DNA from: a virus
Strand: one strand, 5' to 3'
Virus record (IMG/VR): IMGVR_UViG_3300035698_008773
Coordinates: 1-25,289 of that record
Length of the DNA: 25,289 nt
Program-made: the position numbers and the translations under genes
In this document: positions 4,684 to 20,090 of the stretch, in pieces
Layout of the letters: each line of letters starts with the position of its first letter
How positions within the stretch are numbered: the first letter of the stretch is position 1
Notes under the pieces: generated by a model
What the model was told of the DNA's origin: nothing
Databases searched by the model: none
Seen by the model: only the letters and a program-made list of their open reading frames with translations

Positions 4684-5310
4684 ATGCCAACACAAAATTA
4701 CATAATTTCTGGGTCAGCAAAAGAAGGAGCAGTTCTTGGTTATGCTGAAATAAGACATACAATAGACACAAGTAATGCAGGAGCAAGTGATTTAGATCTA
4801 TCAATGGGTTCAGGTGGCACTAATGCTACAACACAAACAATTTATATTAAAAACTTAACAACAAAGCAAATAGTAACAAAAACAACAGACTCTTCAGGTA
4901 ATTATCTTTATGACTTAGCAAACTTAACTTCAGGTTATTCTAATGCAGATATTATTAAAATCTATACTTTCAATTATACAGAGATACCAGTAAAGACAGA
5001 TTTAGTTGATGACTTTATAGAAGAGAGAACAAGAGAAACAAAAGAGTGGTTAGAAGATTCAAGCTCAAGAAGAGTAAGTCCTGTAGATTTATTCGGACAA
5101 CCTTATTCAGCAGATAACCCAATGCCTGTTATCTCAAAAGATATGGATTTCTTTAGTGAGAATTATCCAAGAGTTTGGTCATACACAGGAACAAATTTCC
5201 AGCCAGATAATGAAACAGCTACTCTGCCAAATGGAGATACTTACACAAGAGCATTTACTTGGGATAGTCAGAATAGACCCTTAACAAGAGGAGCTTGGGT
5301 GAAGAACTAA
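4684..5310 (+). CDS. Structural protein with N-terminal beta-sandwich domain
   Basis: The product has 208 residues and starts two bases after the portal stop. Residues about 1-105 form a carboxypeptidase-regulatory-like beta domain with the stretch KNLTTKQIVTKTTDSSGNYL then YDLANLTSGYSNADI. Closely related stretches occur in the proteins at 13377 and 19671, so the domain is a repeated module in this virus. Residues about 110-140 are a charged helix (DFIEERTRETKEWLED). The rest is a polar segment ending RPLTRGAWVK. A capsid- or tail-surface decoration role is inferred. No enzymatic residues are evident. Its stop overlaps the next ATG (TAATG). Confidence 0.6.
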   Translation: MPTQNYIISGSAKEGAVLGYAEIRHTIDTSNAGASDLDLSMGSGGTNATTQTIYIKNLTTKQIVTKTTDSSGNYLYDLANLTSGYSNADIIKIYTFNYTEIPVKTDLVDDFIEERTRETKEWLEDSSSRRVSPVDLFGQPYSADNPMPVISKDMDFFSENYPRVWSYTGTNFQPDNETATLPNGDTYTRAFTWDSQNRPLTRGAWVKN

Positions 5311-6548
5311 TGAGAAAATTATACTTTTATATTTTAGGAACATTGTTGATGTTAGTATTAGTTGGAGCATCACAATTTCAATTTATATTTAATTCACAAA
5401 CAGGACAACCAGACATATTCTTAAATAGTACATCAGATAATGTTTCTATTCAGAATGGTTCATACTTATTCGGACAACCTATAGAGGGTGGAATAAATAA
5501 TGGTATTGTTTGGGCTGCAGAAATTGATACTTTTGGACAATTAAACCTTACTCATAATACAGGATTAAGTTTAACATATCCTGCAATGACAGTTAGAGTA
5601 GTATCAACACCTGACGGTGATGAGAAATATTGTAATATTCCAGGAGCTACAGTTACCGTAACAGATGATGCTCACAAAGCTTATCTTGTTGTTGCTTCAA
5701 CTTGTGCAATAACAACTATTCCTGTAGATACTTTTGTAAATGCAGATATTAATCAAGCAGGAAACACACCTATATTTCATTATATGGCTCATAGTGGAGA
5801 GATAGAAGCACATCAAGGATTACCTATATTAAATAGATTATATATTAGAAACAGATTATTAGCTTTAAAAACAATTAACTTAGATGTTATTAGTGGCTTA
5901 GGAATAACACCTGACCCTACAGGATTTAACTTTACAATAGCTTTAGGAGAGTATGTTTTCGTAGACCAACCAGTATCAACCACTGTTCAAAACTTAACAG
6001 ATGGTGCTACATTAGAAGTATTTTATAGAGATGGTGCAGTATATAAGTATGATGAGTATTCTGGTTTAACACAAACAGGTTTGAATATGACAAGTTGTGA
6101 AGATGCTTCTCAAGATTTAGTTACTTGTTCATTAACCTCAAGATATAGAAGATACTTTATATTTGAAACAGGTTATGAAAATGGTGATGATGATACTGAA
6201 ATACATCAAAGATTAGGTTTAGATGCAGTAAATTATGTAAATCTTGGAAGTTGTTTAAATACAGAAGCAAATAGTTTAACTTATGATTTACCTGACATTT
6301 ATACTTACACAGCTGTACCACTTTATGCTTATTGTGGTAGAGCAAGTGATTCAGCATTAGTAGCTGCACAATTTATTGATTTAAGAACAGTTAAATCAGG
6401 AGATGCTTCAGCAGGTATTGATACATCTATATTCTTAACTATTGATGGTACAAGACCACTAACAGATAATTGGGATATTGGAGATTTTAATATTACCAAT
6501 ATTGAATGTTTGAGTTTTAATAGTGGTGGAAGTATTTGTACAGGTTAA
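5310..6548 (+). CDS. Fibre-like protein with signal peptide
   Basis: I take ATG 5310, which overlaps the previous stop, rather than an earlier frame opening, because it starts a clean signal peptide: MRKLYFYILGTLLMLVLVGA, cleaved near residue 20. The 412-residue product is beta-rich with several N-x-T/S sequons and a few cysteine pairs. Near the C-terminus (about 370-400) is FLTIDGTRPLTDNWDIGDFN followed by ITN, a motif I know from phage tail-fibre proteins, where it joins repeats or the receptor-binding tip. A receptor-binding fibre or spike is the best guess. A signal peptide is unexpected for a protein assembled into virions in the cytoplasm. Confidence 0.6.
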   Translation: MRKLYFYILGTLLMLVLVGASQFQFIFNSQTGQPDIFLNSTSDNVSIQNGSYLFGQPIEGGINNGIVWAAEIDTFGQLNLTHNTGLSLTYPAMTVRVVSTPDGDEKYCNIPGATVTVTDDAHKAYLVVASTCAITTIPVDTFVNADINQAGNTPIFHYMAHSGEIEAHQGLPILNRLYIRNRLLALKTINLDVISGLGITPDPTGFNFTIALGEYVFVDQPVSTTVQNLTDGATLEVFYRDGAVYKYDEYSGLTQTGLNMTSCEDASQDLVTCSLTSRYRRYFIFETGYENGDDDTEIHQRLGLDAVNYVNLGSCLNTEANSLTYDLPDIYTYTAVPLYAYCGRASDSALVAAQFIDLRTVKSGDASAGIDTSIFLTIDGTRPLTDNWDIGDFNITNIECLSFNSGGSICTG

Positions 6549-6557
6549 AATGATACT

Positions 6558-9410
6558 ATGGCAAGAGGAAAATATAAAAGAATTTACATAACAACAATAT
6601 TTACATTAGTTACACTATTCGCAATTCTACAAGCAACAGGAGTTCAAATCACAGCAGATGGTGATAAAGTTTGTGCAGGAGATTTTAGAACAGAATTAGA
6701 ATGTAATTCTTTAGGTTTAGAATATGGTAAAAATTGTGGACCTTGTATTTCTTATTTATCTATTTACAATCCAACAGCTAAATCTATTTACATTTACAAC
6801 AAAGAAAATATTACTATGGACTTCTCTCCTGATATTAAAGATTATCAACTCTATGTAAAGTATTATGGTAAGTGGGTTCCAATGGATTTCACAATGGAAA
6901 CAAGATTAGGTAATGTACCTAAGGATAGAATCTATACATTTGTTTTCCCAAGATATTCTACTAAAGAGTTTAAGTTAGTTGGTTACAAACATAAACCTAC
7001 TGATAACATTAAATGGACTATGGGTATGCCAGGAGATGAGTTAGACCCTTTATGGAAAGGTGTTGATAGTGGAGGAATTATTCTCGGTCAAGAATTTAAA
7101 GGTTATAAAGTTAAATCTGTAACTAATGATGAAAAAAAAATATTTGGTTTTGAAGGTATAAGTATAGATGGAACTACAATTTGTTTAACTCCAAAAATAA
7201 AAGATGGAGAATTAATAGCGATAGAGAAACAAGTTTGTGATGATAAAGAAATTACAAACTGTACAACAATTATAGAAGAAAAGAAATATTACATTCCTGA
7301 TGAAATTCCTTTGTTTGATTATAATAAAAATAGTTTAATAAGCACAATAGAAAAACCATTCTTCTCAAACAAATTCTGTTATGATATAACTGACCCTATA
7401 TTATATAATTTATTGAAGTTTGGTTATGAAAGTATAATCATAGAAGGTGAGTTAAGTTATAATTCTACTGATATTAATATTACTCAATTTACAGGTGGTG
7501 CTCATTTAGAAACACCACAAGAATTAACTTCTGAAATGAGTTTATATAATGACACTGTTTTATTAATGCACTTTAATAATTTAACAGATTACGATACTTC
7601 AACTTTAGCTTATGATTCTTCTACTGGTCAAAATAATGGAACAATAACAGGAGCAGTTTGGAATACAACAGGACAAAAGTTAGGAACAGGAGCAATGACT
7701 TTTGACGGAATAAATGATTATGTTAAGATAAATGATGATGATGATTTTGATAATTTAACAGCTGTTACTATCTCCACATGGGTTAAAGTCAATAGATTAG
7801 ATAGTTATGATTGGATAATAGGTAGAGATACACGAGCATCAATCCCATACAATCATATAGGGTTACAATTAAATGCTGATTCTCCTCAAAATTTTAGATT
7901 TTTTATTAGGTCTAATGATTCAGTAACTCTTTATAACGCAGATAGTACTACATCTCCTTCTTTAGATACTTGGTATCATGTTATAGGAACATGGGATGGA
8001 AATGATGTTAAGATTTATATTAATGGAATAGAAGAAGCATCTACAAGTGCAAATATATTACAAAATGCTTCTTCAGATGATTGGTTTATTGGTGCTGAAA
8101 AAGGTGTACAAAATTGGTGGAATGGAACATTAGATGAAGTAGCTGTTTGGAATAGAAGTTTATCAGTAGAAGAAATAAAAACTTTATATGATAAAACATA
8201 TCCTAAATATGGTTCTATGAGATTTGACAATATTAATTTAGGAACAAATAATACTTTAAATTTAAGTATTGATAGTTGCTCATTAGATTCAAACACTAAC
8301 ATATCAATGCAAATAGGAGATGGAAGTAAAGTAAATATTACTTTAAATACAGCCAATGCAAGAAGTAATTTAGTTTTAAATGATGATAATTTAATTCTTT
8401 CTTACTTCTTAGATAATGATTCTTTAACAGACACAAGTCCAGATAATTATAGAGATAATAAAACTCATGTTTATGATTACTCTACAAATCAACATAATGG
8501 AACTTATGTTGGAGATGCAGGAGAAAACCCTTGGGATTGCACAAATGCAAAGTTGGGTAATTGTGCAATGACTTTTGATGGTGGTACAGATTATATTGAT
8601 GTAGGTAATATGGGTACATCACCTGCTGAAGGAACAATAGCATTTTGGATGAAATCCTATGTTGTTGATGATTATGATAATGTATTTACAACAGATAATG
8701 CAGGAAGAAATGATGCTATAAGATTTGAAGAAAAAACAGATGGTTCTTTTAGTGTTGTTATAAATTATGCCTCTGCAGCAGATGCTCATACTTTAACAAC
8801 TACACTTACAGCAAATCAATGGTATCATGTAGCTTTAAGATTTAGTAGTGTAACAAATAGAGTTCAAGGTTATTTAAATGGGGAGGAAATGTTTGATGAT
8901 GCACAAGTTCGTTGGGTTGATACATTCCCAGATGTAAATATTGGTAGAGGATGGAATGGAAGACCTTGGGATGGTTTAGTTGATGAAGTAGCAATTTGGA
9001 ATAGAACTTTATCTTCTGATGAAGTAAAACAAGTTTATGAAAATAGTAGGCCTTGTTATAATAATGACTATGACTTAACAGGAATTTCTACACTAACAGA
9101 TACTAATTTAACTTTACATTTTTATAGTAATAGTGATTTTACAGGAACACCTGTAATATTTGGAAATATAACTTTAGATAGTTGGATAGGTGTAACAGAC
9201 ACTTGTACTTATTCAGGTAGTGGAGATTGGTTAATTGATATGAGTGATTATTGCCAAATAACAACAGATTATAATGTTACAGGTGATGTTAATTTTACAG
9301 AGGTAGGTAATGTTTCATTTGATTCAGATTTAAATACAACAAGGTGGGGAATACCACCAATAGATTCAATAATTTACATATTGAGCAACGCTTTAATAAA
9401 AATATTTTAG
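6558..9410 (+). CDS. Large exported adhesin with two LamG/concanavalin-like domains
   Basis: The product has 950 residues. After a basic start, residues about 10-28 are a signal peptide or anchor (IYITTIFTLVTLFAILQATG). About 60-320 is beta-rich with cysteines. Two LamG-type jellyroll domains follow, near 330-547 and 605-830. Each shows GAMTFDG/CAMTFDGG early, WYHV in the middle and LDEVAVWNRSL or VDEVAIWNRTL at the end. Such domains bind sugars or surface proteins. The C-terminus ends in a short amphipathic segment (IDSIIYILSNALIKIF). It follows the fibre-like gene closely. It could be a viral adhesin or a protein displayed on the infected cell. The two LamG units differ in sequence, so duplication is old. 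Confidence 0.7.
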   Translation: MARGKYKRIYITTIFTLVTLFAILQATGVQITADGDKVCAGDFRTELECNSLGLEYGKNCGPCISYLSIYNPTAKSIYIYNKENITMDFSPDIKDYQLYVKYYGKWVPMDFTMETRLGNVPKDRIYTFVFPRYSTKEFKLVGYKHKPTDNIKWTMGMPGDELDPLWKGVDSGGIILGQEFKGYKVKSVTNDEKKIFGFEGISIDGTTICLTPKIKDGELIAIEKQVCDDKEITNCTTIIEEKKYYIPDEIPLFDYNKNSLISTIEKPFFSNKFCYDITDPILYNLLKFGYESIIIEGELSYNSTDINITQFTGGAHLETPQELTSEMSLYNDTVLLMHFNNLTDYDTSTLAYDSSTGQNNGTITGAVWNTTGQKLGTGAMTFDGINDYVKINDDDDFDNLTAVTISTWVKVNRLDSYDWIIGRDTRASIPYNHIGLQLNADSPQNFRFFIRSNDSVTLYNADSTTSPSLDTWYHVIGTWDGNDVKIYINGIEEASTSANILQNASSDDWFIGAEKGVQNWWNGTLDEVAVWNRSLSVEEIKTLYDKTYPKYGSMRFDNINLGTNNTLNLSIDSCSLDSNTNISMQIGDGSKVNITLNTANARSNLVLNDDNLILSYFLDNDSLTDTSPDNYRDNKTHVYDYSTNQHNGTYVGDAGENPWDCTNAKLGNCAMTFDGGTDYIDVGNMGTSPAEGTIAFWMKSYVVDDYDNVFTTDNAGRNDAIRFEEKTDGSFSVVINYASAADAHTLTTTLTANQWYHVALRFSSVTNRVQGYLNGEEMFDDAQVRWVDTFPDVNIGRGWNGRPWDGLVDEVAIWNRTLSSDEVKQVYENSRPCYNNDYDLTGISTLTDTNLTLHFYSNSDFTGTPVIFGNITLDSWIGVTDTCTYSGSGDWLIDMSDYCQITTDYNVTGDVNFTEVGNVSFDSDLNTTRWGIPPIDSIIYILSNALIKIF

Positions 9411-10645: not shown

Positions 10646-11713
10646 ATGGATTCTATTCAAGGAACTGCACCATTACCAAACGCAATGGATAAAGGAGATT
10701 ACTTATTCCATCAAGGATTTGGTGAAGCAGGAATATACAACAAAGAAGTTTATTATGACCCATCAAGAGGAATTGATAAAAGAAACCAAATGGGTAAAAC
10801 CATTATGGAAAAAAGGATGGCTCAAATGCAAAAAGCACCATCTATTAACACAGCAACAGGTGGAGCAGGAACTGCAGGTATTGCAATGTTCCCAGTATTT
10901 GTTGACCCTACTATTGTAGATCAAACAAGGAAAATGACTCCTTTAGTTGAGTTAGTTCCAAGAAGAGCAAACAAAGGTTTGACACACGATTACAACAGAC
11001 TAACTGCAAAAGGTGGAGCAAAATGGTTATCAGACGATGCAGCAATTTCTGAAGATGTTGATACATATTCCAGAGACAGTGTATCTATTAAATTCTGTTA
11101 TTCAACAGGTAGAGTTACAGGACCATCAATAGCAGGTATGGCACACTACCAAAATGCAATGTCTTTAGACTTAGGTGTTAAGACACAAGCATTAAAAGAA
11201 GCAGAAGAAGACGCAATCATTAATGGCGATGTAGATACATACTCAACAGAGTTTGATGGTTTAATTCAGTCAATCTCAACAAACACAACAGATGCATCTA
11301 ATAGTTATGTAAATCTAAATGATATTGATACAGAGTTAGCAACAACATTTAATGCAAGAGGTATAATTTCTCTTTGTGTTACTGACGCAGCAACACACTT
11401 TTACATTAAAGGTTTGTTAAGACAATATCAAAGACAACAAGCACCACCAGCTGAAGGATTACCATTCGGTATCCCTGGAGCATTTAGTTATAATGGTGTA
11501 GATTTTATTAAATCTCAATTCATGCCAACATCAACTTCAGCAAGAAGAATATTGTTTTTGGATATGAGATACATCTATATGGCTGTCTTACAAGACATTA
11601 CTTATGAAGAGTTAGGTAAATTTAACGATTCTAACAAATATATGCTAAAAGTATACGAAGCTTTAATTGTAACCTATGAAGGTGCAATGAGTCAAATATA
11701 CGGCATCAAGTAA
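10646..11713 (+). CDS. Major capsid protein (HK97 fold)
   Basis: The product has 355 residues, starts two bases after the protease gene and has CGGAGG before its ATG. The order protease-scaffold-capsid is diagnostic. Features fit the HK97 fold: a helical, probably cleavable N-arm (about 1-70), an E-loop and spine region (LTHDYNRLTAKGGAKWLSDD, then SVSIKFCYSTGRVTGPSI) and a helix followed by ALKEAEEDAIINGD. The A-domain and P-domain follow, ending YEALIVTYEGAMSQIYGI. A protease site after the flexible APSINTATGGAG stretch (about 65-77) is plausible but not shown. Confidence 0.85.
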   Translation: MDSIQGTAPLPNAMDKGDYLFHQGFGEAGIYNKEVYYDPSRGIDKRNQMGKTIMEKRMAQMQKAPSINTATGGAGTAGIAMFPVFVDPTIVDQTRKMTPLVELVPRRANKGLTHDYNRLTAKGGAKWLSDDAAISEDVDTYSRDSVSIKFCYSTGRVTGPSIAGMAHYQNAMSLDLGVKTQALKEAEEDAIINGDVDTYSTEFDGLIQSISTNTTDASNSYVNLNDIDTELATTFNARGIISLCVTDAATHFYIKGLLRQYQRQQAPPAEGLPFGIPGAFSYNGVDFIKSQFMPTSTSARRILFLDMRYIYMAVLQDITYEELGKFNDSNKYMLKVYEALIVTYEGAMSQIYGIK

Positions 11714-13376: not shown

Positions 13377-13694
13377 ATGCCAACAAGAGAATATGTATTA
13401 GATATTACATTAACAACAGGAGCAGCAGTAGGAAGATTATTTTTTATAAGAAACGAAACAACAAGAGAAACTGTTACAACTGCTATGGATTCAAGTGGAA
13501 ATGGAATATATAATTTAGCAAATTTGACAAGTGGTTTTGAAAATAATGATAGAATATTAGTAAGTGTATCTGGTACACATTATGGTGTTGCAGATGTAGT
13601 AATAATAGCTTCAGGAGAAGATGGAGCAAATGTTGATATTACTGGTGTTGCAGAAGATGTAACATCATCAAAAAGAATCACAATCGGAGGATAA
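13377..13694 (+). CDS. Small beta-sandwich protein, member of a repeated family
   Basis: The product has 105 residues. It is essentially a single carboxypeptidase-regulatory-like domain: FFIRNETTRETVTTAMDSSG then YNLANLTSGFENNDRILVSV. The same core occurs in the N-terminal half of the protein at 4684 and at the start of the one at 19671. Here it is free-standing, so the domain can act alone. Surface decoration or host contact is inferred. It starts one base after the previous stop. Two bases separate it from the exported protein that follows. Confidence 0.55.
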   Translation: MPTREYVLDITLTTGAAVGRLFFIRNETTRETVTTAMDSSGNGIYNLANLTSGFENNDRILVSVSGTHYGVADVVIIASGEDGANVDITGVAEDVTSSKRITIGG

Positions 13695-13696
13695 CA

Positions 13697-15355
13697 ATGG
13701 ATAAAAAAATATTCACAATTAGTATTATGACAATCTTAGTTCTATTAGGTAGTTTGTGGGTTATGGCAACAGTTGATTCAACAGACCCTGTTGTACAGAA
13801 TAGTTATCCCATAAATAATTTTACTTGGAATAATAATTCAAATATTGTTTTTACAGCAATAGGAAACGAAACAAATCCAAATGAGTGTGCTTTATGGCAC
13901 AATATGTCAGGTTCATGGGTTGAAAATCAAACAAAAACATTTGTAAATAGTACAAGAATAGTTTTTGATTCAGTAGGTGTAGTTGGTTTTGAAGCAAGAG
14001 GAAATTATACTTGGAATGTTAGATGTACTGATTTAGCAGGAAACTATGGCTGGGGAATAAATAATACAGTAGGAATTGATTATACAGCTCCTTCTATAGC
14101 TTTAAGTAATTATACAGATAATGTTTGGTTAAATAGTTATAATTCAAATTGTGTAGAAAATAGCACATGTAATCTTACATTTTCAGTAACAGTTTTAGAT
14201 TATGTGCCAGTTAATTGTACATTATATGCTGATTTAAATGGTTCAGTATTATCATTAAACGAAACAGTTGAATCCATAACTAATGGCACATTAAAGAGTT
14301 TTGATTTTATAACAGGAGTAGCAGAAAACAATACAGGATATAGTTGGAATATAAAATGTTGTGATGCAGGAAGTTTATGTTCTTGGGCAGATAGTACAAG
14401 TAATCTAACATTAAAAATAGATACAACATTACCTACGCAACCAATACTTGCATGGCCAGTTAATTTATCTTATGTAGCAGATTTAAATCCTACATTAAAT
14501 TGGTCAGCATCTGTAGATGAAAACTTTGAAAGTTATATTTTATTAGCTGGAAAAGCAGCAGCATGGGGAGCTTCCACTACTTATGTATCTAAAATAACAG
14601 AAGATAATGCTATAAACTATACAACCTCTGCAATGGATTATACAAATCTAACAGCTGATTTTACAACAAGGTATTGGGCAATAAATGCTACTGACGATGC
14701 AGGGCAAGGACATATGTCACAAATAAATATAATTAACTTTACTTGGTCTTGTTCAATATTAGAAGCTGATGAATATAGTTATTGTACAATAATCAGAGCA
14801 ACAGAATGTACAAATTGTGATGTGAGTATGTCTCAAGTTGCAGCAGAAACAGGAGCAGATTATGTATACAAATGGTTGGCTAATCACACTTGGTTAACAC
14901 ATACAACTGGTTCAGCTGTTAATGCTAATGAGAACTTTACAAGAGGTCAAGTAGCAGTAATGCACATAGATTCAGCAGATGGAAATCAAACATGGAGTGG
15001 ACCAAGAATATGGAATGCAAGTAATTACACTAAAACAGAGTATTACTTTAACTTTACAAATAACTCAAATTCCAACTGGAATTTAATACCTTGGGCAAAC
15101 CAATCAAAAATAACCTTTGAAAAGCTTGAAGATAGTTTAAACTTTACTTTTGGGGACGCATTAAACGAAACTAATGATGGAAACTTTACATACTTTAGTT
15201 ATCCAAACCCTAATGGTACTGGTTTAAGATATTTAGGTTATGTATGGGGTAGAGGTTCACCATGGCAAGACACAGAGATAAAACCAGGACATGCTGTTTG
15301 GGCAGCTTATGATGGCCCATCGGAGTCAAGTTGGAACTGGAGCGAAGGTACTTAG
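13697..15355 (+). CDS. Exported Ig-like surface protein rich in N-glycosylation sequons
   Basis: The product has 552 residues. A signal peptide covers about 1-26 (KIFTISIMTILVLLGSLWVM). About 30-350 holds three Ig/fibronectin-like units with ITYTAPSI-, TTLPTQPILAW- and NLSY-type linkers and cysteine pairs. About 355-552 is another domain containing ECTNCD and NWNLIPWANQSKITFEKL, with GHAVWAAYDG near the end. By eye there are more than 30 N-x-S/T sequons, far denser than in any neighbour. This style is common in DPANN archaeal surface proteins. I infer export and glycosylation, but no C-terminal anchor is visible. Its place between capsid and connector genes is odd for a cell-surface protein. 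It ends in TAG. Confidence 0.65.
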   Translation: MDKKIFTISIMTILVLLGSLWVMATVDSTDPVVQNSYPINNFTWNNNSNIVFTAIGNETNPNECALWHNMSGSWVENQTKTFVNSTRIVFDSVGVVGFEARGNYTWNVRCTDLAGNYGWGINNTVGIDYTAPSIALSNYTDNVWLNSYNSNCVENSTCNLTFSVTVLDYVPVNCTLYADLNGSVLSLNETVESITNGTLKSFDFITGVAENNTGYSWNIKCCDAGSLCSWADSTSNLTLKIDTTLPTQPILAWPVNLSYVADLNPTLNWSASVDENFESYILLAGKAAAWGASTTYVSKITEDNAINYTTSAMDYTNLTADFTTRYWAINATDDAGQGHMSQINIINFTWSCSILEADEYSYCTIIRATECTNCDVSMSQVAAETGADYVYKWLANHTWLTHTTGSAVNANENFTRGQVAVMHIDSADGNQTWSGPRIWNASNYTKTEYYFNFTNNSNSNWNLIPWANQSKITFEKLEDSLNFTFGDALNETNDGNFTYFSYPNPNGTGLRYLGYVWGRGSPWQDTEIKPGHAVWAAYDGPSESSWNWSEGT

Positions 15356-15364
15356 GAGGACAAG

Positions 15365-16135
15365 ATGAAGAAAAATATTTTTTTACTTTTTATTTTATTT
15401 ACACTTTTAATTAGTTTAATAACTGTAATTGCTGCACCAACACCACCTTATACTTTTGCAGGAGAGATTTCAATAGATGGTGAAGTATGTGATAATTGCG
15501 AAGTGAAATATAAATATATTGATTCAAGAGACGATACTGCACAAAAGACACAAAAAACAATAACTGGATGGTATCAATTTACTAATAAAGAATTTAAAGA
15601 TGGAGATTGGTACAGACCTGGAGATAGGATGGAAGTCTTGTTTTGTGATGAAAATCTTAATGCTCAATGTAAACAAATAATTCCTTTTACAGACGGAGCA
15701 GGAACTTTATATCATGTTCAAATTGAAAATAGTGATGATTACACAATAAGAAACCCAAGAGGAATAACTTTAATTCTAAGAACAGAAGGAGAGTCCTTAA
15801 TTAATCCGAGTTATCAATGTGAAGATGATTCTTGGGTATATAATAAAAATCTTTGTAAAGCAGTTGAAGAACCACTTATTTTGTATGAATGTTCTGATGG
15901 TACTACAGTAGAAGACAAATCAGAATGTCCAGAAGATACAGTAGAATGGTATCATGCTTTAATAGCAAGTTTGCTTTTAGTATGTTTGTTCTTACTTGAA
16001 AAAAGGTATGCATGGGGAAGAGGTTTCTGTGCATTAGTTAAATACTATATCAAGAAAGGAGATTACAAAAGAGCAGTAAAGATGATGAGAACAGCTATTA
16101 CAAAAGCAAAAGCTGGCAAGTACAAGGGGAGATAA
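15365..16135 (+). CDS. Membrane-anchored Cys-rich exported protein
   Basis: The product has 256 residues, with TTAGGAGGACAAG before ATG 15365. A signal peptide covers about 1-22. An ectodomain of about 170 residues starts with a beta domain (TFAGEISIDGEVCDNCEVKY). It carries several cysteine pairs and the segment YECSDGTTVEDKSECPED, a phrase typical of DPANN membrane proteins. A transmembrane helix lies near 195-213 (ALIASLLLVCLFLLEKRYAW). The last 40 residues form a basic helical tail inside the cell (KKGDYKRAVKMMRTAITKAK). It is probably expressed with the preceding glyco-rich protein and could be its anchor or partner at the host membrane. Confidence 0.65.
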   Translation: MKKNIFLLFILFTLLISLITVIAAPTPPYTFAGEISIDGEVCDNCEVKYKYIDSRDDTAQKTQKTITGWYQFTNKEFKDGDWYRPGDRMEVLFCDENLNAQCKQIIPFTDGAGTLYHVQIENSDDYTIRNPRGITLILRTEGESLINPSYQCEDDSWVYNKNLCKAVEEPLILYECSDGTTVEDKSECPEDTVEWYHALIASLLLVCLFLLEKRYAWGRGFCALVKYYIKKGDYKRAVKMMRTAITKAKAGKYKGR

Positions 16136-16141
16136 ATCCCT

Positions 16142-17476
16142 ATGTCTTATAGTACCAATACCCAATTTGGTAGGATATCTGGTTTAGGTGTCAAAGTAGT
16201 AAATGAGAATGTAGGTACAGGAAACAATACATTAACTTCTTTTGATTTAGATAATGATAGAGTTATATCTGACAGCTATACTCTTTATTATGCTGCAGCT
16301 TTAAGTAATGATTTTACAGCTTTGACTGAAACAACAGATTATACATTAGATAAACTTTCTGGTAGGATTAATCTTACAGATACTGGAAAATCAACAGTTG
16401 ATACAAATATTATTTATGCAGATTATGATTATTGTGGAGCAGACAATATAGATGATGCAAACATTACTTCTTTTTTGTCAGAAGCAGAAGCAGAGGTAAA
16501 TGACTTAACTGGATGGTACTGGGGAACTTCAACAGAAGTTATAGAATATCACAATGGTGTAAGGTCAAGTCAGTATCCAGTAACCGATGAACCCTATATG
16601 GCGGATTATGACGCACCAGATTACGTTCAACTTAGAGAACCCCCAATCTCAAGTTTAAATAGTGTTTATTTCTTGGCAAGAGGTACAAGTTTAAGTTATG
16701 TCTATTCTTATGATTTGGGAACTACAACCTTTACAGATTATACAAAAGAAGCAATAAACCCATCAGAGGATAATTTTTATACGTTTGGTACAGTTCCAGC
16801 AGTTGGTGACATCATCTATTTTGGCTCTTCATATAAATTTTTAGGATTGCATGTAAGAAATGGAGTTCAAGGTACAGGAAGCCCAGCATTAGATTGGGAG
16901 TATTATAACTCTGTAGCTGAAGCTTGGCAAGATATTACAGAAACAGAAGTAGATTCAGGCAGTAGCACATTTACAGCAGATGGAAGATTTACTTGGACAG
17001 AACCTAATAATTGGGGAAAAAATACTATTAATTCTGTAGAATCATATTGGATTAGAGCAAAAGTTGGAACAGTTTATACTATTGCACCACAAATGAAAGA
17101 GGTAGCAATGGATCAAGATTTAGTAATAAACAAAGAATTACAATTATCAAATTTAGATTATAGTGAATCAGGAAAACTAACTTTTTTAGGTGATGATATT
17201 CCAGACGGAACAAGAAACATAAGAATAACATATAACAAAGGGTTATCAACTGTTCCTACAGCAATTAGTGAATTAACATCAATATTGGCTTCTATCAGAG
17301 CTTATGCCCACATTACAGGTGCTTCTTATGATGCTATGACATCTTATACATTAGGAGCAAAGTCAGTAACTGTAGGTGAACAATATGTAAATGTAAGAGA
17401 AGTAGTTAGACAATTTGAAGTAAGAGCAAAAGAACTATTAAAAAATTACGGAGTTCGGGCGGATTTTATAGCTTAA
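16142..17476 (+). CDS. Head-tail connector (adaptor) with inserted beta domains
   Basis: The product has 444 residues. The connector core of gp6/gp15 type is visible as an N-terminal helix set (DDANITSFLSEAEAEVNDLT, about 95-120) and a C-terminal helical part (LTSILASIRAYAHITGAS, then REVVRQFEVRAKELLKNYGV). Normal adaptors are 100-200 residues; the excess here is added beta domain. One lies N-terminally, about 25-93 (TLTSFDLDNDRVISDSYTLY, then DYTLD). Another is inserted at about 180-330 (DWEYYNSVAEAW then FTWTEP and SYWIRAKVGT). It would sit under the portal and bind the head-closure protein. The added domains probably project from the neck. Confidence 0.65.
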   Translation: MSYSTNTQFGRISGLGVKVVNENVGTGNNTLTSFDLDNDRVISDSYTLYYAAALSNDFTALTETTDYTLDKLSGRINLTDTGKSTVDTNIIYADYDYCGADNIDDANITSFLSEAEAEVNDLTGWYWGTSTEVIEYHNGVRSSQYPVTDEPYMADYDAPDYVQLREPPISSLNSVYFLARGTSLSYVYSYDLGTTTFTDYTKEAINPSEDNFYTFGTVPAVGDIIYFGSSYKFLGLHVRNGVQGTGSPALDWEYYNSVAEAWQDITETEVDSGSSTFTADGRFTWTEPNNWGKNTINSVESYWIRAKVGTVYTIAPQMKEVAMDQDLVINKELQLSNLDYSESGKLTFLGDDIPDGTRNIRITYNKGLSTVPTAISELTSILASIRAYAHITGASYDAMTSYTLGAKSVTVGEQYVNVREVVRQFEVRAKELLKNYGVRADFIA

Positions 17477-18430: not shown

Positions 18431-19042
18431 ATGGAATTAGATATTGAATTTATAAAACAAAAATATAAAGAAGGATTATCTTGTCAGAACATAGCTAAGT
18501 TATTAGGTGTTGGGTCAACAACAATTCATAGAAGGTTAACTAAAGTTAATTTTAAATTAAGACCACAAAGATATCAAAAAGGACATAAATCTATTGCTTG
18601 GAATATAGGATTAACAAAGGAAACAGATAAAAGGGTGGCTAAATATAGTGGTGAAAGACATTATAAATGGCAAGGGGGATGGAAAGAAAGGGAGGGATAT
18701 GTCTTTCTTTATAGAACAAAACACCCAAGAGCAAATAGTACAGGATATGTTAAAAGAGGTCGTTTAGTTATGGAAAAATATATTGGAAAGTATTTAACTA
18801 AAGAAGAAGTAGTACATCATATTAATGGAGATAAAAAAGACGATAGAATAGAAAATTTACAACTATTCCCTAACAATAGTGAACACCAAAGATTTCATGG
18901 AAAAGAAAGGTATAAAAGAAAAGAAGGGAACATATATGAATTAAATAAGATTCAAAAGAAAGAAAAGCACCCCATGTGGGGAAAGAAACATACAGAAGAA
19001 TCAAAAGAAAAGAACAGATTAGCTCATTCTAAATTTGTGTAA
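18431..19042 (+). CDS. Free-standing HNH homing endonuclease with NUMOD3
   Basis: The product has 203 residues. About 1-42 is a helix-turn-helix (LSCQNIAKLLGVGSTTIHRR) for DNA recognition. About 50-70 is a NUMOD-like segment (GHKSIAWNIGLTKETD). About 110-150 is the HNH nuclease: VVHHINGDKKDDRIENLQL with the metal-binding HH and the Asn/His ligands in FPNNSEHQRFH. The C-terminal 25 residues (HPMWGKKHTEESKEKNRLAH) are a clear NUMOD3 motif. It cuts an allele lacking the gene so that repair copies it in. It has its own promoter before it and a restart promoter overlapping its stop, as expected for a selfish insert in the neck-tail border. Confidence 0.9.
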   Translation: MELDIEFIKQKYKEGLSCQNIAKLLGVGSTTIHRRLTKVNFKLRPQRYQKGHKSIAWNIGLTKETDKRVAKYSGERHYKWQGGWKEREGYVFLYRTKHPRANSTGYVKRGRLVMEKYIGKYLTKEEVVHHINGDKKDDRIENLQLFPNNSEHQRFHGKERYKRKEGNIYELNKIQKKEKHPMWGKKHTEESKEKNRLAHSKFV

Positions 19043-19107: not shown

Positions 19108-19671
19108 ATGCAAATAACAGAACCAAGCGAAGTAGTCGTAGAATTCTTACACTCTCAGATTCCAGAACCAATAAGAGAATACAATGGTACACAATATGCT
19201 CAAAGATTAATCACAGCTTCACAGACATTTACTGGAGATGCTTCAACAACAAGATTTACAATAACTCAAACAAGTATAGTATGTATCACAGCTGTAACTG
19301 ATGGAGGTACAGCAAAAACAAAATACAAAGATTATGATATTGATTTACAAAGAAGGCAAGTTATATTCAAAACAGCACCAGCAAATAATAATGCTGTTGT
19401 GGTTACATACAAATATGGCTCTCCGACATGGATATATCCCGACCAACCAAGACTTGACTTAACAGATTCATCTTTTCCAAGAATAGGTGTAGTTCTACTT
19501 AACAACTCAGGAGAATCAAGAGGTTTTCAAAGCACACAATATTGGAATGAATGTTCTTTACAAATAGATATCTTATCAAAGAAAGGAGTTATGTGTTCTC
19601 CTATTACTAAATCACACACAATAAATACAAGAAATCAAGGAGTATCAGATTTATCTCTGACTATAGATTAA
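19108..19671 (+). CDS. Tail terminator, N-terminal portion, with inserted beta domain
   Basis: The product has 187 residues. Helix TEPSEVVVEFLHSQIPEPI at the start and FPRIGVVLLNNSGESRGFQS then YWNECSLQIDILSKKG near 122-165 match the first half of a tail terminator, the ring capping the tail tube at the neck. Residues about 37-104 are an added beta domain (FTGDASTTRFTITQTS, then DYDIDLQRRQVIFKTAP and VVVTYKYG), a type common in phage virion proteins. The second half expected of a terminator (helix plus strand) appears only in the next frame. The tail SPITKSHTINTRNQGVSDLS looks unrelated. AAGAGGT precedes the ATG. Confidence 0.55.
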   Translation: MQITEPSEVVVEFLHSQIPEPIREYNGTQYAQRLITASQTFTGDASTTRFTITQTSIVCITAVTDGGTAKTKYKDYDIDLQRRQVIFKTAPANNNAVVVTYKYGSPTWIYPDQPRLDLTDSSFPRIGVVLLNNSGESRGFQSTQYWNECSLQIDILSKKGVMCSPITKSHTINTRNQGVSDLSLTID

Positions 19672-20090
19672 TGAGTCCAGTAGAAAGTTATATTATGGAT
19701 GGTGTAGTTTATGAAAGTGATGGAACTACAGGTTCTAATGCTGTAACAATTTATTTTAAAAATAATAGAACTTTAGAAATAGAGCAAGTAAAAACAAGTT
19801 CAGATGGAACTTTCATATTTGATTGTGCTAATTTTCCTTCAGAGTATATTAATACAGATGAAATAAGTTATTATGTAAGAGAAGGTGGATTCAGAGAAGG
19901 GCAAGATGTTGTAGATTACTTAGCAAGAAAACTAAGAACACAACTAACAGCAAACTGGCAAAATATCAAAAGAAAGATATTTTATCCAAGAATACTAAAT
20001 GATTCACAAATACCTTATGATGAAGACCACCAAATGTTCAGAAGAACACTAACAATAAACTTCAATGGATTAAATCAAGGAGAGAGCTAA
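19671..20090 (+). CDS. Beta-sandwich module joined to tail terminator C-terminal portion
   Basis: The product has 139 residues and starts in a TAATG overlap with the previous gene. About 1-80 is the beta-sandwich found also at 4684 and 13377 (TIYFKNNRTLEIEQVKTSSD, then FIFDCANFPSEYINTDEI). About 84-139 is a helix and strands, DVVDYLARKLRTQLTANWQN then FRRTLTINFNG, which read as the missing second half of the tail terminator in the preceding frame. The likely history is insertion of the beta module into a terminator gene, with the two halves now made as coupled polypeptides. Without a structure this remains inference. Confidence 0.5.
   Translation: MSPVESYIMDGVVYESDGTTGSNAVTIYFKNNRTLEIEQVKTSSDGTFIFDCANFPSEYINTDEISYYVREGGFREGQDVVDYLARKLRTQLTANWQNIKRKIFYPRILNDSQIPYDEDHQMFRRTLTINFNGLNQGES

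Follow-up and report, generated by a model that had tools for sequence, protein, structure and literature searches.

Why the head operon of a tailed virus should carry, between its capsid and connector genes, two genes for proteins that appear destined for the cell surface is the question raised by a 25,289-base linear virus record (the whole stretch analyzed here, referred to as the window). The gene set of the window is that of a head-tail virus: the large terminase TerL (Terminase_3 match, 1.6e-13), a portal protein (Phage_portal match, 1.2e-30) fused to a MuF-like domain, the major capsid protein (MCP), the connector, an HK97-gp10-like protein, and the tail tube (Phage_tube_2), followed among the tail genes by a candidate for a short tape measure and by a hub protein that weakly matches a baseplate hub. 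By its HK97-type MCP, portal, and large terminase, the virus is a head-tail member of the Caudoviricetes. The module also encodes an HNH endonuclease (18431-19042), which is free-standing and contains HTH and NUMOD3 motifs, and HNH genes are present also in the related loci L011, L012, and L038. The slot in question is bounded by the following two genes.

10646..11713, + strand: major capsid protein, slot boundary (SU10_MCP match, 3.8e-9; 22.6% to the HHTV-2 MCP)
16142..17476, + strand: head-tail connector, slot boundary (44% to L011_6986)

The protein L011_6986 matches the head-tail adaptor family phrog_442 (5.9e-8). The placement of the gene pair between capsid and connector genes, as proposed in an earlier sequence-only reading, is thus confirmed by an SU10-type MCP upstream and an adaptor-family connector homologue downstream. 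The sole named match of the MCP is HHTV-2, a tailed Haloarcula virus. Because this match, although only at 22.6%, is accompanied by the same gene order (TerL, portal-MuF fusion, protease, MCP, connector region, tail tube), the host of the window virus is likely archaeal; the sequon enrichment of the virus group described below is compatible with archaeal N-glycosylation. Membership in the Saparoviridae, to which HHTV-2 belongs, was rejected owing to the low MCP similarity and to the lack of any connector match among named phages. HHTV-2 also differs from the window in that no signal-peptide ORF is called between its MCP and tail tube genes.

The slot of the window contains two adjacent genes, coding for the proteins P552 and P256, with the following features.

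13686..13690, + strand: GGAGG Shine-Dalgarno motif of P552, which overlaps the 3' end of the preceding gene
13697..15355, + strand: P552, predicted exported, sequon-rich, Ig-like glycoprotein of 552 aa (ORF; sequon count)
13697..13768, + strand: predicted signal peptide of P552, residues about 1-24 (hydropathy segment 4-28 after MDKK; exact cleavage site deduced)
13769..14092, + strand: P552 Ig-like domain 1, residues 25-132 (self-similarity to domain 2)
14114..14434, + strand: P552 Ig-like domain 2, residues 140-246 (self-similarity to domain 1)
15355..15359, + strand: GGAGG Shine-Dalgarno motif of P256
15365..16135, + strand: P256, membrane-anchored partner of 256 aa with predicted type I topology (hydropathy, model, composition)
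15365..15436, + strand: predicted signal peptide of P256 (hydrophobic segment 1-28, KD19 3.03)
15437..15937, + strand: P256 ectodomain, 8 Cys, net charge -17 (composition)
15938..16012, + strand: P256 transmembrane helix, residues 192-216 (hydropathy; model helix 192-212, pLDDT around 80)
16013..16132, + strand: basic cytoplasmic tail of P256 (14 K/R, 1 D/E; model helices 216-249)

Both genes are packed closely into the head operon: P552 starts 2 nt and P256 9 nt after the preceding stop codon, and the connector gene starts 6 nt past P256. Signal peptides were predicted by a hydropathy rule, which was also applied throughout the virus group. In P552, the N-terminal segment 4-28 is the only hydrophobic one, with no further transmembrane segment. 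Its C terminus, SSWNWSEGT, accordingly lacks a PGF-type S-layer sorting signal, and P552 was rejected as a PGF-sorted S-layer protein. The two tandem domains, each of about 108 residues, align with each other at 32% identity (E 2e-11), which supports the label “Ig-like,” although the AlphaFold model, calculated without an alignment, is too poor to establish the fold. The body of the protein contains 36 N-x-S/T sequons versus 12.6 expected from composition, while the reversed S/T-x-N control yields 12; in 2,000 shuffles of the full-length sequence, the mean was 12.7 (s.d. 3.0) and the maximum 24. The earlier description of a 552-residue Ig-like protein with more than 30 sequons is therefore borne out.

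The same is true of the signal peptide, Cys-rich ectodomain, single transmembrane helix, and basic cytoplasmic tail ascribed to P256, which reappeared in the hydropathy profile and in the counts of 8 Cys and 14 K/R. Counted from residue 214, the tail comprises 43 aa with 14 K/R versus 1 D/E. The AlphaFold model of P256 (also without an alignment) is confident only at helices 1-23 and 192-212, with pLDDT around 80. The number of sequons in P256 is zero, which was counted against the surface-complex reading given below. By prediction only, the two proteins together display the signal peptides, sequon enrichment, and membrane anchor that characterize Sec-exported membrane or surface glycoproteins.

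The window encodes two more predicted exported proteins, P417 and P950, located between the portal and the MCP and absent from the earlier reading. Each exported pair is directly preceded by a small gene, and these two small genes are paralogous.

4684..5310, + strand: 208-aa protein, paralogue of 13377..13694, directly 5' of P417/P950 (same BLASTP alignment as below)
5295..6548, + strand: P417, first member of the second exported set (signal peptide; 8 sequons versus 4.4 expected; relative L063_632, E 7e-164)
6558..9410, + strand: P950, predicted exported, two LamG domains and a C-terminal Cys-containing domain (PF13385, 1.3e-51; 27 sequons versus 13.4 expected)
13377..13694, + strand: 105-aa protein directly 5' of P552/P256, paralogue of 4684..5310 (BLASTP 46% over 57 aa, E 3e-13)

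A third small paralogue is found at 19671-20090, so that the three measure 105, 208, and 139 aa, two of them directly preceding exported pairs. Their profile had no relative in the other viral loci, and P256 was tested and rejected as a homologue of this family. The C-terminal Cys-containing domain of P950 aligns with domains of exported proteins from other viral contigs; neither the N terminus of P950 nor P417 had a match among named phages.

Searches with MCP and connector profiles yielded 67 viral loci (L-numbers), some of which are pieces of the same contigs. The contents of the slot were counted in 27 non-duplicate viral records, the window included, that have both MCP and connector in place. 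Signal-peptide proteins of at least 120 aa occupy the slot in 8/27; in 14/27, only non-exported proteins of at least 200 aa are present, and 5/27 have neither. In one of the eight, L053, the sole signal-peptide protein is a membrane-anchored one, encoded beside non-exported LamG-type proteins. In the MCP tree, the exported state appears in the window, L005, L002/L003, and a clade of L012, L014, L016, L055, L058, L059, and L062; L017 and L019, with non-exported slot proteins, are nested inside that clade. This distribution places the exported state on several branches of a tree whose deep forks are resolved only in part. In the ∼39-kb relatives L055, L058, and L062, all 10 of the 10 sequon-enriched signal-peptide ORFs are located inside the slot and none elsewhere.

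Several of these cassettes combine a long secreted protein lacking any further transmembrane segment with a small Cys-rich membrane-anchored one. L053_9087 shares with P256 both the layout (signal peptide, Cys ectodomain, transmembrane helix, cytoplasmic part) and the place directly before the connector. Its Cys-rich ectodomain is common to proteins of L055 and L059, and the cytoplasmic part (L053:9087-9983) matches phrog_18926, a phage family of unknown function (3.7e-27). Clustering of the exported proteins gave a LamG/C-terminal-domain family of 11, a fiber-like family of 8 with the recurrent mature start WTPxSDIDLRNYY or similar, the small Cys-rich membrane-anchored family of L053, L055, and L059, the pair of P417 and L063_632, and many singletons, among them P552 and P256. 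Some modules occur in both forms. Thus, L002_13616 (with a signal peptide) and L017_10908 (without one) occupy the same slot (E 1.9e-20), and L002_4541, an exported protein of the portal-MCP slot, is related to L051_7538 and L042_3550 (E 5e-19 and 6e-18), which lack signal peptides and are encoded in the MCP-connector slot. The simplest account of these patterns is a locus for fiber- or adhesin-type genes that has been filled with exported versions in several lineages.

Sequon enrichment separates the two classes of proteins sharply. The 31 signal-peptide proteins from non-duplicate records contain 661 sequons versus 313 expected (observed/expected ratio 2.11; reversed motif, 1.03), whereas the ratio for the 412 other proteins of the same records is 1.14 (reversed motif, 1.08; Mann-Whitney p 4e-12). 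Taken singly, non-exported LamG- or fiber-like proteins have ratios from 0.2 to 1.4, and exported LamG proteins exceed their non-exported homologues in sequons in most aligned segments. Export and N-glycosylation of the signal-peptide proteins are therefore well supported as predictions. A 188-aa repeat ORF on the minus strand of the L062 contig (G014; 38210-38776), with NSTxC/DNST-like repeats, has 20 sequons versus 5 expected and no signal peptide.

The exact P552-P256 pair is so far unique to the window, with no second example found: it is absent from 19 related contigs and from the 67 viral loci, pattern searches of IMG/VR for P256, P552, and the Ig-like domain gave no match, and neither protein has a match among named phages or a relative in Pfam, PHROGs, NCBIfam, or PDB. 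The weak Pfam hits, Pput2613-deam on P552 and TPR_8 on P256, fall below the cutoffs and were disregarded. Comparison and clustering likewise led to rejection of both proteins as homologues of the exported proteins of the relatives. Fold searches with the AlphaFold models returned nothing below 1e-3, only weak Ig/FN3-type matches that include the Methanosarcina surface protein 2l0d. The sequence-only reading, which had named absence of the pair from all relatives with an otherwise identical operon as a refuting result, is supported in part: the pair itself is missing from all relatives found, while comparable exported proteins recur. Anchoring of assembling virions to the membrane by the basic tail, which that reading also suggested, is a conceivable role. 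Chance insertion is unlikely, since the exported kind recurs at the locus even though the exact pair does not. Because several related viruses carry other proteins of this type at the same site, the slot has the look of a rapidly changing, undescribed means by which such viruses place their own proteins outside. The mainly open-access papers searched gave no description of exported, sequon-rich sets in a tailed-virus structural operon, in agreement with the earlier statement that no described head-tail virus system of this form was known.

The export signals, topology, sequon enrichment, operon coupling, and recurrence of cassettes at the locus, all shown by computation, are best explained by P552 and P256 forming a late, Sec-exported, N-glycosylated surface complex, which may well be displayed on infected cells as an adhesin or shield. 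P552 would be secreted through Sec, with N-glycans added by the host, and P256 would serve as its type I membrane anchor, with the Cys-containing ectodomain outside and the basic helical tail inside. Exported versions would thus fill, here and in several related lineages, a locus that carries fiber/LamG-type genes in relatives. P552 would bind P256, and the complex, if displayed on the surface of the infected cell, could mask or alter that surface late in infection, keeping progeny from adsorbing to debris or to cells that are already infected; alternatively, it might promote contact with new hosts. It is the combination of a soluble Ig-like glycoprotein with a type I anchor that indicates display on the infected cell. 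This reading is further supported by the restriction of sequon enrichment to signal-peptide proteins, the sequon excess of exported LamG proteins, the strict location in the slot, the recurrence in 8/27 records, the operon coupling, the pairing of secreted with anchored proteins in other cassettes, and the topology that L053_9087 shares with P256. Against it was counted the size of the L002 cassette, in which ∼3,670 codons in four exported proteins seem a large expense for a simple shield, as were the single occurrence of the exact pair among the records searched and the dependence of the group-wide signal-peptide calls on hydropathy.

The same large coding investment would fit virion spikes or fibers that take the secretory route, become glycosylated outside, and join the particle either at the membrane or once lysis has occurred; the anchor and its basic tail would then link the spike to the capsid. 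This alternative is possible but somewhat unlikely. The locus does hold fiber/LamG-type genes without signal peptides in relatives, with homologous modules in both forms, and the ∼39-kb cassette relatives have no obvious fiber genes downstream of the tail hub. However, the view that these genomes have no other candidate attachment protein is weakened by the candidate non-exported surface proteins of 260-373 aa that many cassette genomes keep in the same slot, and the window pair is Ig-like rather than fiber-like. We know of no precedent for a secreted protein attaching to the virions of archaeal head-tailed viruses. Such virions are described as free of membrane lipids and as being released by lysis (PMC10384203), which also argues against spikes. 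It is quite unlikely that the lineage makes host-recognition spikes via the secretory pathway, N-glycosylated and membrane anchored, and that these become attached to its HK97 head, either at the membrane or through wrapping; if true, a glycoprotein strategy otherwise tied to enveloped viruses would extend to HK97 heads.

The high turnover, and the 5/27 slots that lack such genes, would be accounted for by cargo (moron-type) surface genes that serve the virus only by altering its host, as in lysogenic conversion or competition. An exported cassette in L014 includes a signal-peptide ORF, truncated at the end of the contig, that matches a calcineurin-like phosphoesterase (L014:11648-12076; PF00149, 3.6e-7), which also fits cargo. 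Yet the layout is not that of morons: the genes are embedded in a structural operon with 2- to 9-nt gaps, their position is identical across lineages, and a scan of 84,980 cellular species with the MCP profile found no provirus of the group, making this explanation improbable.

Recent capture of host S-layer or adhesion genes acting unchanged, related to the captured host surface layer suggested by the sequence-only reading, is very improbable. Ig-like, LamG, and Cys-motif architectures are indeed familiar from archaeal surface proteins, and the weak fold similarity to the Methanosarcina surface-protein domain points the same way. However, scans of cellular genome contigs with the MCP and P950 N-terminal profiles revealed no cellular homologue and no host genome, P552 has no match in plasmids or PDB, the third-position GC of the pair is like that of the neighboring viral genes, and the cytoplasmic part of the L053 anchor belongs to a phage family. 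A reading in which the hydrophobic N termini do not act as signal peptides, and an Asn/Thr-rich composition explains the sequons, is scarcely tenable: prediction was by hydropathy only, but shuffles and the reversed motif reject a composition effect, P256 has confident model helices at both hydrophobic segments, and signal-peptide proteins differ sharply from the others of the same genomes.

Among known systems, each analogue shares one aspect with the pair and fails another. PblA and PblB of the Streptococcus mitis phage SM1 are adhesins from a phage structural operon that are found on the cell surface; they are not known to carry signal peptides, and lysis delivers them to the surface, whereas export signals and N-glycosylation sequons are built into the P552/P256 set. 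Llp of phage T5 and its kin, small superinfection-exclusion lipoproteins that mask receptors, resemble the pair in possible function, i.e., masking of the host surface. Assignment of P552 and P256 to such lipoproteins was rejected for lack of a lipobox Cys at the predicted cleavage sites (...LWVMATVDS in P552, ...TVIAAPTPP in P256). Pleolipovirus spikes (HRPV-1, HRPV-6, HFPV-1) are, like the pair in its predicted form, virus-encoded, membrane-anchored glycoproteins, and glycosylated spikes have been reported for HRPV-1 and HFPV-1 (PMC10384203). Pleolipoviruses, unlike the window virus, have enveloped vesicle-like virions and no HK97 head-tail module, and the absence of any Pfam, PHROGs, NCBIfam, or PDB match to a spike or fusion family led to rejection of the pair as such spikes. 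The head turrets of HFTV1, likened to the pair by description, are surface projections on the head of an archaeal tailed virus, for which possible binding to the host S-layer has been discussed; they are virion proteins, and the paper does not mention signal peptides (PMC12494034). A survey of tailed viruses from archaea assigns the adhesins that set host range to tail fibers, and the term “signal peptide” is absent from it (PMC8651126).

The usual view is that the surface proteins of tailed viruses are built within the cell. If a conserved locus alternates between cytosolic proteins and exported, probably glycosylated ones, some archaeal tailed viruses would be investing heavily in proteins for the cell exterior, either for reprogramming of the host surface or for virion spikes made in a way not known from this class. 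The locus also provides concrete candidates, with a natural comparison of exported and non-exported forms, for how viruses recognize, protect, and reshape mostly uncultured hosts.

Exported sequon-rich sets are encoded also in L063, L092, L093, L097, and L098, some with more distant head modules; the cassette type therefore extends past the MCP relatives studied. An exported protein of 1841 aa (L002:15201-20726) combines LamG domains with 79 sequons; by eye, one part resembles a polysaccharide-degrading enzyme, and its N terminus has a relative at the tail end of L006 (19593-21020). The terminase ORFs L003:2613-4865 and L004:282-2660 look intein-interrupted, and the terminase region of L003 contains a second, HNH-like-looking ORF that overlaps in another frame.
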